Positions 2,687 to 57,556 of a DNA stretch of 57,556 nt are shown here, piece by piece. Positions within the stretch are counted from its first letter, which is position 1. Every line of letters begins with the position of its first letter. The position numbers were made by a program, and so were the translations under genes. The stretch lies in NCBI GenBank assembly GCA_003567475.1, contig PWZL01000038.1, forward strand, positions 1-57,556. Direction: 5' to 3'. The stretch is from Gammaproteobacteria bacterium. GTDB taxonomy: Bacteria; Pseudomonadota; Gammaproteobacteria; Steroidobacterales; PWYM01. The notes under the pieces were generated by a model, which saw nothing but the letters and a program-made list of their open reading frames with translations, ran no database searches and was not told the DNA's origin.

Positions 2687-4917
2687 CGGCGTCGGCGGCG
2701 TCGGCGGCCCTGGCGCGCCGGGGCCGGCGCAGGCGCAGGCGCTTCGGCATTTTCAGGCGACTCGACCAGCTCGAAGTCGATCTTGCGGTCTTCCAGATTG
2801 ACGCGCAGAACGCGGACACGGACATGTCCCGTCAGACCGTACACCGTACCGCTGCGCTCACCCACCAGCGCCCGACGTATTGGATCGTGGCGGAAATACT
2901 CCTTCCCCAGGTAGGACACATGCACAAGCCCTTCCACATGAACTTCGCTCAGCCGCACGAACACGCCGAAGGGCATGACGCCGGTGATGACGCCGTCGTA
3001 CTCCGTCCCGATATGATCCTGCATGAATTCGCACTTGAGGCGGTCATGGGAATCCCAGGTGGCCTCGTCGGCGCGGCGTTCGGCGCGCGAGGTGAGATCG
3101 CCGAGTCGCTCCACATCCGGCATGGCGTAGGCGAAACCCTTCGCCGATCCATGCTCGAGCACATGGCGGATGCCCCGGTGGACCATAAGGTCAGGATAGC
3201 GCCGGATCGGTGAAGTGAAATGCGCGTAGGCCGGCAACGCGAGGCCGAAGTGGCCGATATTGCGCGGACGGTAAACCGCTGCCTGCATCGAGCGCAGCAC
3301 CACCATCTCCACCAGCTCACGCTCGGGATGATCGTGCAGACGCTCGACCGCCCGGTAGAGATCACGCGGTTTCAGCGTCTGGCCCTTGGGCAGTTTGACA
3401 TCGAACGTGGCCAGGAACAGGCGCAGCTCTTCGAGTTTCTCGTTGGCGGGACCCTCATGCACGCGATACAGCGTAGGCATTCGATGGTGCCGCAGGAAGC
3501 GTGCCGCCTCGACATTGGCGGCGATCATGCATTCCTCGATGATGCGGTGGGCCACGCCACGGTGACGCGGACTGAGTCCGGTAACGTGTCCGTCCTCGTC
3601 GAAGTCGAAGGCCACCTCCGGCACGTCGAAGTCCAGCGCGCCGCGGCGCCGCCGAGCGGTGATCAGCGCCTTCCAAGCCTCGTGCAGTTCTCGGAGAGGA
3701 TTGGCAAGACGCTGGACGGCGGGCCGGCCGCGGCCTGTCTCCAGCCAGGTCGTCACGTCCTCGTAAGTCAGTCGGGCTGCTGACCGCATGACCGCCGAGT
3801 AGAACTCCGAGCCCTTGACCTTGCCGTCACGGCCCAGGTGCATGTCGCAGACCATGCACAACCGATCCACCTGTGGATTGAGCGAGCACAGCCCGTTCGA
3901 CAGCGCCTCGGGCAGCATCGGGATGACCCGATTGGGAAAATACACCGAGGTGCCTCGGCGCTGGGCCTCCTGATCGAGGGGCGTGCCGGGTCGGACATAA
4001 TGCGAGACATCCGCGATGGCCACCAGGATGCGCCAGCCATCGTCGGCAGGCTCGCAGTAAACGGCGTCGTCGAAGTCGCGCGCATCCGCCCCGTCAATCG
4101 TCACCAGCGGCAGATCCCGCAGGTCCACCCGACCCCGCTTGGCGGTGCCAGGCACCCGCTGGGGCATGGCCTCGGCCTCGGCCAGCACCTCCTCCGGCCA
4201 TTCCTGCGGCAACCCGAAAGCATGCACCGCCATCTCGACTTCCATGCCGGGGGCGCCCGGGTTGCCGAGCACGCGGGTGACCCGACCGATGGCGAGCCGG
4301 TTCTCCTCGGGATACTCGTCGATCCCGACCAGCACCGCATTGCCAGGCTGCGCGCCACCATGGCCACCGCGCGGAATGACCACGTGATGAGGGATACGCG
4401 GATTGTCGGGCACCACGTACGTCACGCCCGACTCCCGATGCAGCCGGCCGACCAGTTCGGAGTGAGCGCGCTCAAGCACCTCCATCACCGAGCCCATAGG
4501 CCGACCCTGGCGGTCTTCACCCCGCACCTGCACCGCCGCACGATCGCCGTCAAACAGCCGCCGCATCTGGCGCGCCGGCAGGAAGATGTCCTGTTCGCCC
4601 TTGTCAGGGATCAGGAAACCGAAGCCATCCCGATGACCCTGCACCCTCCCGGGCACGAGATCGGCTTTGCGCACCAGCAGGTACTCGTCCCGACGGTTTC
4701 GCAGCACCTCGCCGGCACGGATCAGACCGGCCAACCGTTCCTCCAGCGCTGCGCGCGCCTGCGGGTCGTCGGCGACTTCGACCTGTTCGGCAAGCCGCTC
4801 CAGCGTGGCCGGCGCCCCCTCACGCTCCAGGGCCTCCAGCACCTGCTCTGCGGCAGGCACGCCTGCGTCCTGCCGTTCCCGCCTCGCACGACGGCGGCTG
4901 CCACTTCGTCTGCTCAA
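2683..4917 (-). CDS. rnr: Ribonuclease R
   Basis: 744 aa from a TTG at 4917, chosen because GGGAG sits 6 nt upstream and the product then starts with a basic (M)SRRSGSRRRARRER stretch. A further in-frame TTG at 4953 would reach into the tRNA-Leu promoter and lacks a clear ribosome site. Domains in order: N-terminal helix-turn-helix-like region; cold-shock domains (HRDGFGFLIPDKGEQDIFLP); RNB nuclease with the acidic metal site TIDGADARDFDDAVYCE; S1 domain near GVITGVMPFGVFVRLSEVHV. The C-terminus is an Ala/Pro then Arg-rich tail, as in many RNase R proteins. It is a 3'-5' exoribonuclease that degrades structured RNA. rlmB follows with a 4-nt overlap. Confidence 0.96.
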   Translation of the reverse strand: MSRRSGSRRRARRERQDAGVPAAEQVLEALEREGAPATLERLAEQVEVADDPQARAALEERLAGLIRAGEVLRNRRDEYLLVRKADLVPGRVQGHRDGFGFLIPDKGEQDIFLPARQMRRLFDGDRAAVQVRGEDRQGRPMGSVMEVLERAHSELVGRLHRESGVTYVVPDNPRIPHHVVIPRGGHGGAQPGNAVLVGIDEYPEENRLAIGRVTRVLGNPGAPGMEVEMAVHAFGLPQEWPEEVLAEAEAMPQRVPGTAKRGRVDLRDLPLVTIDGADARDFDDAVYCEPADDGWRILVAIADVSHYVRPGTPLDQEAQRRGTSVYFPNRVIPMLPEALSNGLCSLNPQVDRLCMVCDMHLGRDGKVKGSEFYSAVMRSAARLTYEDVTTWLETGRGRPAVQRLANPLRELHEAWKALITARRRRGALDFDVPEVAFDFDEDGHVTGLSPRHRGVAHRIIEECMIAANVEAARFLRHHRMPTLYRVHEGPANEKLEELRLFLATFDVKLPKGQTLKPRDLYRAVERLHDHPERELVEMVVLRSMQAAVYRPRNIGHFGLALPAYAHFTSPIRRYPDLMVHRGIRHVLEHGSAKGFAYAMPDVERLGDLTSRAERRADEATWDSHDRLKCEFMQDHIGTEYDGVITGVMPFGVFVRLSEVHVEGLVHVSYLGKEYFRHDPIRRALVGERSGTVYGLTGHVRVRVLRVNLEDRKIDFELVESPENAEAPAPAPAPARQGRRRRRRR

Positions 4918-4946
4918 ACTCGTCTCCCGACATTCGACCGGGCAAA

Positions 4947-4975
4947 TTGACAAGGCCCGGGACAGTGATTACATT
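4947..4975 (+). promoter_or_regulatory. Sigma70 promoter of tRNA-Leu
   Basis: A perfect -35 TTGACA (4947-4952), a 17-bp spacer and a -10 TACATT (4970-4975) precede the tRNA by 36 nt. The sequence after the -10 is GCGCG, a GC-rich discriminator of the kind found at stringently controlled stable-RNA promoters. It lies in the divergent gap between rnr and the tRNA. Confidence 0.75.
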
Positions 4976-5011
4976 GCGCGTCTTCCTGACGCGGACCTCG
5001 TTCGTGTCAGA

Positions 5012-5098
<87 letters not shown>

Positions 5099-5199
5099 TC
5101 TTTGCAAGGTAACACAGGCCTTGCCTGCCCACAGTCGCGGCTTGCCGAAGGGTAGCAGGCGTGCACTGGCGTCATACGTGACACTTCACGCCGGCTGCT

Positions 5200-6510
<1,311 letters not shown>

Positions 6511-6553
6511 CTACCTGAGGGGTGATGCCCGCGGCGGCATCGTCTGCCGCCAG

Positions 6554-6745
6554 TCAGCCGCGAACGGCGTACAGCAACAGCAATCCGGCCAGCATGATCA
6601 CCAGCCCCCCGATCCGCAGTTCACGGTCGGAGAGCTGGCCGATCACCAGCAGGCTTAGTCGCCAGCGCTGCGGGCTGGCGAAGGGTAGCAGGCCTTCGAG
6701 TACCAGGTACAGCGCGAAGGCCGCCAGCAGGTCCGTCCAGAGCAT
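6554..6745 (-). CDS. DUF2065 family small membrane protein (YjeT-like)
   Basis: 63 aa with two hydrophobic segments: about residues 1-20 (LLAAFALYLVLEGLLPF) and about 44-61 (IGGLVIMLAGLLLLYAVRG). The motif LVLEGLLPFASPQRWR is characteristic of DUF2065, the family of E. coli YjeT, which sits between hflC and purA exactly as here. Function is unknown; the constant position hints at a link with the HflKC-FtsH membrane complex, but this is inference. It starts 15 nt after the hflC stop. Confidence 0.92.
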   Translation of the reverse strand: MLWTDLLAAFALYLVLEGLLPFASPQRWRLSLLVIGQLSDRELRIGGLVIMLAGLLLLYAVRG

Positions 6746-6760
6746 GCCGCGCTCGCGCAG

Positions 6761-7630
6761 TTACGGCGTCGGCGACATATCGCGCATATAGCGGAAGAAG
6801 TCGCTGTCGGGCTCCAGGACCAGGATGTCCTGCTCGAGGCCGATCGACTCACGATACGCCTGCATACTCCGGAAGAAGGAGTAGAACTCCGGATTCCGGG
6901 TAAACGCCTGGGCGTAGATCTCCGTGGAGCGTGCATCGCCATCACCCCGGATGCGTTCGGCATCGCGGCGGGCCTCAGCCAGGATCACCACTCGCTGACG
7001 ATCGGCATCGGCGCGGATCTGCTCCGACCGCTCGGCACCGCGCGCTCGCCAGTCAGCAGCCACCCGCGCACGCTCCTGGCGCATGCGGTTGAACACCGAA
7101 TCGCTGACCTCGTCGGGCAGGTCGATCTGCTTGACACGGATATCCAGGATGTCGATGCCCAGCGTGCCTGCCGCCTGGGTGGCGCGGGCCAGCATGGCGT
7201 CCATCATCTCGGAACGCTCGAGCGAGACCACTTCCTGCACCGTACGCCGGGCAAACTCGCCCCGGATGCCGTCTTTGACGATTTCGGTCAGGCGCATGGC
7301 GGCGACACGCTCATCGCCGCGCGTAGAGCGGTAGAACTCGCCCGGCTCGATGATCCGCCACTTGATGAAGAAATCCACTCGCAGGTTTTTGAGCTCCGCT
7401 GTCAGAAACTCCTCCGGCGGGTTGTAGATCCTCAGTACCTGATTGGAGAGCTTGACGACATTGTTGACGATCGGGATTTTGACATGCAGGCCCGGATCGT
7501 AATCATCGCGGATGATTTCGCCGAAGCGGAACTTGAGTGCATGCTCGCGCTCGTTGACGGTGAACACCGACATACTGACGCCGATACCGATCAACACCAG
7601 GACGAAGAGAAGAATATTGAACTTACCCAT
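6761..7630 (-). CDS. hflC: HflC, FtsH protease modulator (SPFH/band 7)
   Basis: 289 aa. One N-terminal membrane anchor (about residues 4-24, FNILLFVLVLIGIGVSMSVF) precedes a periplasmic SPFH domain with HALKFRFGEI and the coiled region rich in RAEAD-type repeats (EQIRADADRQRVVILAEARR). With HflK it forms the cage around FtsH that controls quality control of membrane proteins. It begins 21 nt after the hflK stop, with GGGAGG about 12 nt before the ATG. Confidence 0.97.
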   Translation of the reverse strand: MGKFNILLFVLVLIGIGVSMSVFTVNEREHALKFRFGEIIRDDYDPGLHVKIPIVNNVVKLSNQVLRIYNPPEEFLTAELKNLRVDFFIKWRIIEPGEFYRSTRGDERVAAMRLTEIVKDGIRGEFARRTVQEVVSLERSEMMDAMLARATQAAGTLGIDILDIRVKQIDLPDEVSDSVFNRMRQERARVAADWRARGAERSEQIRADADRQRVVILAEARRDAERIRGDGDARSTEIYAQAFTRNPEFYSFFRSMQAYRESIGLEQDILVLEPDSDFFRYMRDMSPTP

Positions 7631-11513: not shown

Positions 11514-13327
11514 CGGCCGCGCAGAAACAGGCTGTCGAGCTGCCGCAGTGGGAGCACGGTCCAGGTCGGGCGGCCATGGTTGCACTGGTCGGCGCGTTCG
11601 GTGGCCTCCATGTCCCGCAGGAGCGCGTTCATCTCCTCCCGGGTGAGCAGGCGGTTGGCGCGTACGCTGCCATGGCAGGCCATCGTGCCCAACAGCGCGT
11701 GCTGCGCCTGCTCGATCCGGGCGGAACTGCCCAGCTCACCGAGATCGCCCAGCACGTCGCGAACCAGCTGCCCGGCGTCCGCCCCGGCCAGCATCGCAGG
11801 CACGGCACGAATCACCAGCCGCTCCGGCCCCTGGCGGTCGACCTCCAGGCCCATCTCCCGCAGCCTTGGCGCCTGGCGTTCGGCCAGCGCCGCCTCAGCC
11901 GAGGACACCGCGAGGCTCTCGGGCACCAGCAGCGGCTGGAGTTGCACGCCACCGCTGGCGGCGGCCTGTTTCAGCCGCTCATAGACAATGCGCTCATGCG
12001 CCGCATGCATGTCGACCAGCACCAGTCCCTCGGCGTTCTGCGCGAGGATGTAGACCCCGTGCAACTGGGCCAACGCAAAGCCCAGCGGCGGAATATCCCC
12101 GCCCGCGGCGTCGGCAGCCCCCTGTGCGGCGCTCCTGGACAGACCGGCGCCGCCGATACCCGCCTGTTCACGCACGGTGCCGGCGACGGACGCGCCGAGC
12201 GCCCAGGGCAGCGGGCCACCCAGCGATAAGCCACCCTGACCAGGCCGCGCAGCCATGCCTGCCATCTGCGCCGGCGCCGCCGCGCTGATCTCGCCGGCAC
12301 CGGTGGCCGCCGACACCGCTGCGGCGCGCGGACGGGTCGCGGCCAGTCCCTGCTCGACACTGCGGAACACGAAGTCATGGACCCGCCGGGCGTCGCGAAA
12401 ACGCACCTCGATCTTCGCCGGATGCGCGTTGACGTCAACCCGCGCAGGGTCCATGTCGAGAAACAGCACGTAGGCTGGCTGGCGGCCGTGATAGAGCACG
12501 TCGCGGTAACCGTGGCGTACCGCGTGAGACAGCAGCTTGTCGCGCAGCGCTCGGCCGTTGAGGTAGACGTATTGCAGATCGGCCTGCGCGCGGGAAAACG
12601 AGGGTTGCGCGAGCCAGCCCCACAGACGCAGCCCGTCGACCTCGCGCTCGATATAAAGACAGTGCTCCACGAAGACTTCGCCACACACCGCAGCCAGCCG
12701 GCGCAGCCGGCTCTCCTCGTCCTGTCCGGCGGGCAGGCGCAGCTGGCTGCGGCGCCCGGCACTGAGACTGAGTGTGGTGTCGAAGCGCCCGAGCCCGATT
12801 CGCCGAACCATGGTCTCCACATGGCCAAGCTCGGTGCGATCGGTGCGCAGGAACCGACGCCTGGCCGGCGTGTTGTAGAACAGGTCACGGACCTCGACGC
12901 AAGTGCCCGGCGGCGACGGCGCAGGCTCAGGCGCCGCGATCCTCCCGCCTTCGACCTGTACGCGCCACCCCTCGCTCACGTCCCGTGGCCGCGAGGTCAG
13001 CGTGAGACGTGAGACCGAGGCGATCGAGGGCAAGGCCTCACCCCGAAACCCGAGCGAGACCACGTGTTCGAGATCGTCCAGCGAGGCGATCTTGCTGGTG
13101 GCGTGGCGATCGAGCGCCGAGGCGAGCTCATCAGCCGGGATACCCGCGCCGTCGTCGCGCACCCGCACGAGCGCACAGCCCCCCTGCTCGACCTCGATCT
13201 CCACCCGTCCGGCACCGGCGTCGAGACTGTTCTCGAGCAGCTCCTTGACCACGGAAGCCGGCCGCTCGACGACCTCACCGGCGGCAATCTGGTCGACGAG
13301 CTGGGGCGGCAGGCGGCGGATCGGCAT
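11510..13327 (-). CDS. mutL: DNA mismatch repair protein MutL (endonuclease type)
   Basis: 605 aa. N-terminal GHKL ATPase motifs: [18 protein letters not shown] and [12 protein letters not shown]. The C-terminal domain carries D-M-H-A-A-H-E-x4-E (Asp at about residue 439), [15 protein letters not shown] and FLR. These match the metal-dependent nicking endonuclease motifs of MutL proteins from MutH-lacking bacteria. The start [20 protein letters not shown] is canonical, so the ATG is secure, yet there is no Shine-Dalgarno: an 8-bp inverted repeat ends on the base just before it. The central linker is Gly/Ala-rich. miaA overlaps the stop. Confidence 0.97.
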
Positions 13328-55242: not shown

Positions 55243-57556
55243 ATGAATTTCCTCAGCGCGCTCAAGGCCGATCGTCTCATCGCCCAGATTCAGGGCGCGG
55301 GCGACCCTGCCTCACCGGAAGCGCGCAAGGCACTCGAGAAGCTGGGCCGGGTCGGGCCCAGCGCGATCCCTCGCATCATCGAGGCACTGGGCCATGCCGA
55401 CCGGCGCCAGACCGTGGAGTTCGTCGAAGTCCTGACCGGACTGATCTCCGAGCGGACCTTTCCGCAGGTCGCGCGCGGCCTGGCCGACCCCAGCCCGCGG
55501 GCGGTGTCCGGCACGGCATGGGCCCTGTCATCCAGCCAGAACTTCAATCCCAATCGCCTCCTTGAACTGCTGAACGAGGAAGACATCTCTCGCCCGGCTG
55601 TCATGGAAATCATGGCGGTACATCGCCAGCGCCTTAACCTGCGCGAACTCCTGCAGGTCGCCTATGACCTCGAGGGGGCGGAACGCACGGCCCTGTTCAA
55701 GCTGGTCGGCCAGGCAGCGACGCTCGAAACAGTCCCCGAGCTGATCGCCCGCCTGGATGGCAAGGATCCCGGTGTCCGGGTCCACCTGATGCGTATCCTC
55801 GGTCAGTTCAAGGCACCTGAGGTGGCCATGGCGCTGCAACGCCAGCTCGGTGACGGCAACAAGCAGGTGCGCCGGGCCGCCCTGGACGCCTTGGGTGAAC
55901 AGGACAGCGGCCTGGATGTCGTGCGCTTGTGCGGCCTGCTGCGGGACCCCGATCTCGATGTCGTCAACCGGGCGGTGGACCTGATCGTGCGCCTCGCCCA
56001 TCCGGACACCGTTCGCCACCTGATCGAACCGCTGAAGGACGAATCGGAATATGCCCGACGCGCCGCGGTGGAAGTGTTGAACGAACTGTGCGACGTGAAC
56101 AGCGTCAAGGTGCTCTTCGAGGCAGTCAAGGACGAAGACTGGTGGGTCCGGTCCCGCGCCTCCGATGCACTGGCCAAGATCGGCGGTCCACGGGTGATCG
56201 ACGCCGTATTGCAGCTCGTCAACGATGACGACGAGGCGATCCGGCGTGCAGCCATCGAGATTCTGAATTCCACGCGTGACGAGCGTGCAGTGAAATCCCT
56301 GATGGAGGCGACCCGCGACCAGGACTGGTGGGTCCGCGAGCGGGCTGCCGATGCCCTGGGGTCCATCGGCAGCCGGGAGGCGGTACCGGCGCTGGTCGCG
56401 ATGCTCGATGGGGAGCCGAAAAGCGTGCCGGCAGCGATCCGCGCCCTGGGCAAGCTGGGCGATGCGTCCGTGGTCCAGCGCCTGACCCCGCTGCTGCGGC
56501 GTGGCGACAAGGCCATCAAGGTCGAGACCATGACGGCGCTCTCGCGGCTTGCCGGCGAACGCGAGGCCGATTCGGTGCGCACCCTGCTGCTGCACGCCGG
56601 TCAGGCCACCGCAGATGTCACGGTCAACCGGCTGGCCGGAAAACTGGTGCAGGACATGGAGAACCGGCTGCTCGGTGCCACCACCACCGCCAGCGGCAGC
56701 GTCGCCCGTGCTGCCGACTCGCTCAGCGGCAGTCATCCCGCACTCGCCGCCAGCGGCAGTCACACACTGCTGGAAGCACCCGGCGCGCTGGACAGCGGTG
56801 CAAGCTCATTGCCCCAGCTGCCCAAGGGCGTGGACAGCGGCGCGCTGGACATTGCCGCACTCTCCCCGGGCGACATCATCGAGGGTCGCTACCGCTTCAT
56901 CGAGAAGATCGGCAAAGGCGCCTTCGGTACCGTCGTGCTGGTCGAGGACACCGTGGTCGAGGAACGCCTGATCCTCAAGTTCCTCAATCCGAATTTCGCC
57001 TCGGACGAGGAAATGATGAAACGTTTCGTGCACGAGCTGCGCTACTCGCGCAAGATCACGCACAAGAACGTCATCCGCATCTATGACTTCGTCTTCATCT
57101 CCGGAAACTACGCCATCTCGATGGAGTTTTTCCCCTCCCACACGCTCGGCACGGAAGTCGTGGAGCAACGCCCACTGGCCATCGAACGGGCGCTGCGTTA
57201 TGGCTGCGACATCGCCACCGGCATGGCCGTGGCGCACCAGCAGGGCATCATCCACCGAGACCTGAAACCGGCAAACATCCTGATCAACGACGAAGCGCTG
57301 CTGAAAATCGTGGACTTCGGGGTGGCAGCAGCGGCGGCCAGCGGGGGCACGGAACTCACCAAGACCGGCTATGTCATCGGCTCGCCGAAATACATGGCGC
57401 CCGAGCAGATTCTTGGCAAGAAAGTCGATGAACGCGCGGACATCTACAGCCTCGGGGTCATCCTCTATGAAATGCTCACCGGTTCGCCACCCTACACCAA
57501 GGGCGACCACATGTCGGTGATGTACCAGCACGTGCAAGGCAAGGCCGAGGCACCGC
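55243..57556 (+). CDS. HEAT-repeat serine/threonine protein kinase (C-terminus off the right edge)
   Basis: 771 complete codons from the ATG at 55243 to the edge, with no stop; an in-frame ATG at 55159 would add 28 residues. Residues about 1-470 are HEAT/PBS-lyase-type helical repeats, including the paired units EDWWVRSRASDALAKIGG and QDWWVRERAADALGSIGS. A Ser/Gly/Ala-rich linker (about 480-540) follows. The kinase domain starts near 543: glycine loop IGKGAFGTVVLVED, Lys in LILKFL, Glu in FVHELR, catalytic IIHRDLKPANILI (Asp673), VDFGVAAA and GSPKYMAPEQ. All key residues are present, so it should be active. No membrane segment is visible. Signal and target are unknown. Confidence 0.93.
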   Translation, partial: MNFLSALKADRLIAQIQGAGDPASPEARKALEKLGRVGPSAIPRIIEALGHADRRQTVEFVEVLTGLISERTFPQVARGLADPSPRAVSGTAWALSSSQNFNPNRLLELLNEEDISRPAVMEIMAVHRQRLNLRELLQVAYDLEGAERTALFKLVGQAATLETVPELIARLDGKDPGVRVHLMRILGQFKAPEVAMALQRQLGDGNKQVRRAALDALGEQDSGLDVVRLCGLLRDPDLDVVNRAVDLIVRLAHPDTVRHLIEPLKDESEYARRAAVEVLNELCDVNSVKVLFEAVKDEDWWVRSRASDALAKIGGPRVIDAVLQLVNDDDEAIRRAAIEILNSTRDERAVKSLMEATRDQDWWVRERAADALGSIGSREAVPALVAMLDGEPKSVPAAIRALGKLGDASVVQRLTPLLRRGDKAIKVETMTALSRLAGEREADSVRTLLLHAGQATADVTVNRLAGKLVQDMENRLLGATTTASGSVARAADSLSGSHPALAASGSHTLLEAPGALDSGASSLPQLPKGVDSGALDIAALSPGDIIEGRYRFIEKIGKGAFGTVVLVEDTVVEERLILKFLNPNFASDEEMMKRFVHELRYSRKITHKNVIRIYDFVFISGNYAISMEFFPSHTLGTEVVEQRPLAIERALRYGCDIATGMAVAHQQGIIHRDLKPANILINDEALLKIVDFGVAAAAASGGTELTKTGYVIGSPKYMAPEQILGKKVDERADIYSLGVILYEMLTGSPPYTKGDHMSVMYQHVQGKAEAP

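Follow-up and report, generated by a model that had tools for sequence, protein, structure and literature searches.

The DNA analysed here (the window, 57,556 nucleotides) is an entire contig, G000:C64, one of 102 contigs in the genome of a gammaproteobacterium of the order Steroidobacterales. At its right-hand end lies a gene encoding a HEAT-repeat Ser/Thr kinase (55243–57556, plus strand), which is cut by the contig end and was delimited by its open frame, its Pfam matches and a start codon kept in L003 and other relatives. The frame runs from the ATG at 55243 to the last base of the window, covering 771 residues without a stop. On L002, a contig with 95% identity, the last base of the window falls at 12314 and base 3 of G000:C28 at 12317, so C28 resumes at the very next base after the window. 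Read in the matching frame, C28 adds the final 50 residues and ends in a stop codon, completing a kinase of ~821 residues, and the gene is thus intact. The check for a premature stop, set beforehand, found none, and an interrupted kinase gene was rejected, as C28 continues the frame to a normal stop. Scanning upstream of the gene for promoters and terminators found nothing. Elsewhere, on G047:C120, a single in-frame TAG lies within the kinase region, reflecting either decay or an assembly error.

Pfam analysis of the window protein identified HEAT_2 repeats (PF13646, E 3.4e-52) in 4 stretches and a protein kinase domain (PF00069, E 2.5e-48). The HEAT solenoid occupies about residues 1–473 (55243–56661, plus strand) and is followed by a variable Ser/Gly-rich linker of about residues 474–543 (56662–56871, plus strand) and then by the kinase domain match (56890–57537, plus strand), which covers positions 1–211 of the 263 in the Pfam profile, with the remainder on C28. 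We used AlphaFold2 to model the complete, 95%-identical L002 orthologue from a 48-row alignment. In the model, residues up to about 475 form a helical solenoid (pLDDT mostly 80–95), residues 480–533 have pLDDT <50, and the kinase domain is of lower confidence; mean pLDDT was 76.3 and pTM 0.50. In a fold search, the best 50 of 1995 matches were kinases and designed alpha-solenoids. Hydropathy peaks inside the kinase domain, where the top 19-residue stretch has a Kyte–Doolittle mean of 1.48; no membrane segment is therefore seen, and we read the kinase as soluble.

Conservation was assessed across 120 related loci, comprising the best 80 of 301 relatives and 40 genome stretches chosen from order and class matches. 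The protein has the Gly loop, beta3 Lys, alphaC Glu, HRD Asp, DFG Asp and APE Glu of Hanks-type kinases, and seven core residues (Lys579, Glu598, Asp673, Lys675, Asn678, Asp691 and Glu721) are all conserved in 119/120 loci, the sole exception being L211, which carries a run of 34 unknown residues. From its sequence, the kinase looks active. The original prediction of HEAT repeats first and kinase last, with the catalytic motifs intact, was thus confirmed by Pfam, the AlphaFold2 model and the core residues. Within the activation loop, where Thr706-Lys707-Thr708 are encoded at 57358–57366 (plus strand, placed by codon arithmetic), Thr706 is conserved in 120/120 loci, and position 708 holds Thr in 110 loci and Ser in another 8. 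Mean identity to the L002 protein is 69% for the kinase domain, 49% for the HEAT region and 28% for the linker (the last figure from 101 loci). The linker is the least conserved region and its Ser/Gly richness a local trait. A proposal that the linker is a likely autophosphorylation site found no support, since phosphosites in so poorly conserved a region are unsupported by conservation, unlike activation-loop Thr706.

The strongest fact about this locus lies outside the window, in the gene pair downstream of the kinase. On contig C28, the kinase stop overlaps the start of the next gene, T1, by 13 nt, and T2 follows. Both encode PilT-family ATPases: the L002 copies score 420.0 (T1) and 431.8 bits (T2), exceeding the curated PilT/PilU cut-off of TIGR01420 (319.1 bits), and the solved structures nearest to each are PilT. 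The Walker A Lys, Asp-box Glu/Asp, Walker B Glu and both His-box His residues are present in 113/113 T1 rows. The motor motifs of T2 are complete in 107/107 rows except for the first His-box His, which is Ile or Val in 107/107 (for example, in L142 (G000:C28) and at L002:13571-14644). With this His replaced, T2 may be no ordinary motor, and may instead be a specialised motor subunit. A single in-frame TGA was seen in T1 on G005:C112, again attributable to decay or an assembly error.

Phylogenetic analysis of 126 rows, using a quick method without bootstrap, placed T1 (47 rows) and T2 (46 rows) each in a single clade, with SH-aLRT values of 100 and 97, respectively. Both clades lie apart from canonical PilT and from the two kinds of PilU that these genomes encode; the tree labels 'PilT' and 'PilU2' also took in 14 PilB/GspE-like rows, all on one distant branch. 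A separate locus with three PilT/PilU-type genes was found in 7/7 genomes examined, so that, together with T1 and T2, these genomes encode five PilT/PilU-type ATPases. In the canonical clusters inspected (L143 (G000:C94), L147, L149 and L150), the three genes, one for PilT and one for each of the two kinds of PilU, are consecutive.

The original prediction also held that right-hand neighbours may form a unit with the kinase, and asked whether the HEAT–kinase order and the neighbours are kept in related genomes. The idea of a unit was borne out, T1 and T2 being the neighbours in the window's genome and the next two same-strand genes after the kinase, in that order, in 108/120 loci. Among the 12 exceptions, the locus leaves no room for the pair in 6 and breaks off after or inside T1 in 2; T1 is split into two pieces ahead of T2 in 1, and the remaining 3 have room and lack T1: L200 (G258), L209 (G249) and L211 (G378). 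In G258, the kinase and T1-T2 are both kept, on different contigs and with neither at a contig end. L209 encodes a divergent, intact HEAT-kinase of 804 residues (minus strand, 4171–6582) beside unrelated genes, and T1 has no match in that genome; it may represent a sister family that has a different partner. The distance between kinase and T1, measured in 80 loci with a search pattern that missed 25/120 kinases, is an overlap in 7 and ≤150 nt in 64, with a median of 98.5 nt. Mirror-distance correlations across 102 loci, computed with no control gene and so not counted as evidence, were 0.964 (r) for kinase-T2, 0.94 for kinase-T1 and 0.929 for T1-T2.

Kinase and motor genes also occur together across genomes. 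In a class sample of 369 genomes, the kinase was counted at E <= 1e-120 and T1 at E <= 1e-140; in a pre-test, T1 rows scored at least 592 bits and every other PilT-type row at most 448. The kinase was found in 49 genomes and T1 in 45, all 45 within the 49, and T1 was found in 0/320 class genomes without the kinase. The four genomes in which a kinase match is not accompanied by T1 are G249, G378, G393 and G405. Outside the window's order, this sample contains the kinase with the PilT-type pair in 21 families. In an order sample of 97 genomes, with the kinase counted at E <= 1e-130, kinase and T1 were both present in 67 and both absent from 30. As the genomes share ancestry, these co-occurrence counts are not independent events, and Fisher values calculated from them are not to be taken as probabilities. 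In a phylum-level sample of 299 genomes only the window's own genome matched, and the 20 other genomes listed were all of the same class, so that this search sets no taxonomic limit. In one genome, a 213-residue HEAT fragment adjoins a 154-residue C-terminal piece of T2 (L227 (G084:C18), 3849–4951, minus strand), as if T1, together with the kinase domain before it and half of T2 after it, had gone in a single deletion.

Phosphatase, FHA and cyclase genes had been suggested as neighbours, and this suggestion held in part. In tBLASTn searches of 35 class-level loci (L180–L214), FHA proteins turned up in 16 loci, PP2C phosphatases in 10, and proteins of the FHA-GAF-HD and cyclase-FHA types in 6 and 4, respectively. 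Within the window's order, PP2C, FHA and cyclase or HD genes were not among the recurring neighbours of the kinase, and PP2C and FHA were rejected as constant partners there. A DUF6812-like protein of ~155 residues is encoded just upstream of the kinase in 29/35 class-level loci (for example, L204, L196, L181 and L187); its match to DUF6812 scores 20.7 bits, under the family cut-off of 27.1. It was not found in the 97 order genomes at E 1e-8, and in a control the same query detected it in 4/4 class-level and 0/4 order genomes.

We consider it probable that the HEAT-scaffolded kinase controls T1 and T2 as a dedicated second PilT-type motor pair. The protein architecture, the intact catalytic residues, the order of the genes, their co-occurrence and the separate ancestry of T1 and T2 are observed, and from these we infer the docking, the substrate, the direction of the effect and the type IVa pilus as the filament. 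The HEAT arm would dock the kinase onto the motor or the pilus base; the kinase, switched on via its activation loop, would phosphorylate T1, T2 or a bound partner, and phosphorylation would switch a second retraction-type motor. For part of the class, we propose that a PP2C phosphatase reverses the mark and FHA proteins read it, and nucleotide second messengers could be linked in through the cyclase-FHA or FHA-GAF-HD proteins; the PP2C, FHA and cyclase/HD neighbours found there fit a phospho-switch with an eraser and readers. The more specific proposal that the kinase phosphorylates the auxiliary PilT-type pair itself, with PP2C erasing the mark and FHA proteins reading it and linking it to cyclase/HD-type second-messenger enzymes, is offered tentatively, as a possible arrangement that is less likely than not.

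Two other readings also place the kinase close to these motors. T1 and T2 may drive a filament or process other than the type IVa pilus, such as an MSHA-like pilus, DNA uptake or pseudopilus turnover, with the kinase controlling that. The separate T1 and T2 clades, the canonical motors encoded elsewhere in all seven genomes examined and the missing first His-box His of T2 are consistent with this, as is the fact that PilB above the cut-off was not found in 12/67 kinase-bearing order genomes, several being incomplete assemblies. However, T1 and T2 both pass the curated cut-off for type 4a PilT/PilU, and PilB above the cut-off is far commoner with the kinase (55/67 genomes) than without it (5/30), so we regard another filament as unlikely, albeit a credible alternative. 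It is also conceivable that the kinase is functionally tied to the motors and that its targets are a pilin, a regulator or the DUF6812-like protein instead of T1 and T2, the unit merely co-producing parts. Ser/Thr positions conserved in the pair but absent from canonical rows number one each, Thr351 in T1 and Thr262 in T2, so no T1- or T2-wide phosphosite stands out, and the DUF6812-like protein recurs in most class-level loci. That protein was not found in the order genomes, in which T1 and T2 persist, by a query that did detect it in the class-level controls, and this makes the view rather doubtful.

Two further explanations were rejected. Common descent could by itself hold the genes together, and in the 80 best relatives the housekeeping neighbours apbC (76 loci), metG (69) and dcd (66) also stay in place, with some loci not long enough to include them. 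In the stretches examined of the 35 class-level loci, however, apbC, dcd and metG are gone, while the kinase-T1-T2 trio stays in 31. The unlinked genes of G258, both retained, and the joint nature of the absences point the same way, and plain synteny is a very improbable account. An anti-phage defence kinase is equally improbable. PADLOC kinase models do match, with E values down to 1.2e-69 (PD-T4-6), but 25 of the 37 matches were listed and all of these are confined to the kinase domain (~residues 570–800 of an 800-residue query), which is the result that a Hanks kinase of any sort would give; moreover, the locus is fixed across an order, next to housekeeping genes.

The interest of the HEAT-kinase lies in its connection with pilus motors. 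PilT-family motors drive pilus retraction, and to our knowledge the choice and switching of extra PilT copies are poorly understood. If the more specific proposal above is correct, retraction in many gammaproteobacteria would be set by a eukaryote-like phospho-switch besides the known chemosensory, cAMP and c-di-GMP controls. The finding points to one particular regulator that can be tested and to two motors of unassigned role. Since the carriers include named isolates (Steroidobacter gossypii, Povalibacter uvarum, Peristeroidobacter soli and P. agariperforans), the system is open to experiment.

Among known systems, the kinase domain is closest in sequence and fold to Hanks-type kinases of the PknB/StkP/Stk1 type. 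In that type, the kinase domain comes first and extracellular sensor repeats follow, whereas here the HEAT solenoid precedes the kinase and no membrane-like stretch is seen. The protein, truncated by the window end, scores 239.5 bits against the PASTA-kinase model NF033483, missing its cut-off of 450 bits. T1 and T2 resemble the type 4a retraction ATPases PilT and PilU in their TIGR01420 scores and nearest structures, yet they differ from the pilT-pilU locus in forming clades of their own, in occupying their own locus coupled to a kinase gene and in the lack of the first His-box His in T2.

Type VI secretion is controlled by the kinase-phosphatase-FHA set PpkA-PppA-Fha. The likeness lies in the grouping of kinase, PP2C and FHA genes with a cell-surface machine, which is found here in part of the class-level loci; by contrast, the kinase here has HEAT repeats and is partnered by two PilT-family motors, and the locus can do without PP2C and FHA. 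The window's own genome encodes a separate operon of a Ser/Thr kinase, a PP2C phosphatase and an FHA protein (L225 (G000:C66), 4092–7357, minus strand), the last matching the FHA query at E 8.6e-45. It shares this gene content with such systems, but its 570-residue kinase has the kinase domain last and no HEAT match, and no PilT genes lie in the 14 kb listed around it. The operon adjoins a radA-like gene, as read from the start of its sequence, and could cross-talk with the HEAT-kinase system.

A search of the open-licence literature, in which some phrases were blind to the slashed form 'serine/threonine', found no report of a HEAT-repeat kinase with PilT. In the available part of a Bdellovibrio study, pilT and an FHA gene appear as separate hits and a kinase goes unmentioned (PMC6561027), and a kinase-phosphatase module of a Pseudomonas prophage is described, in the abstract, as a defence and lysogeny system (PMC11341870). 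The present locus appears, as judged from its genes and their order, to be a Hanks-type kinase module accompanied by its own pair of PilT-family motors.
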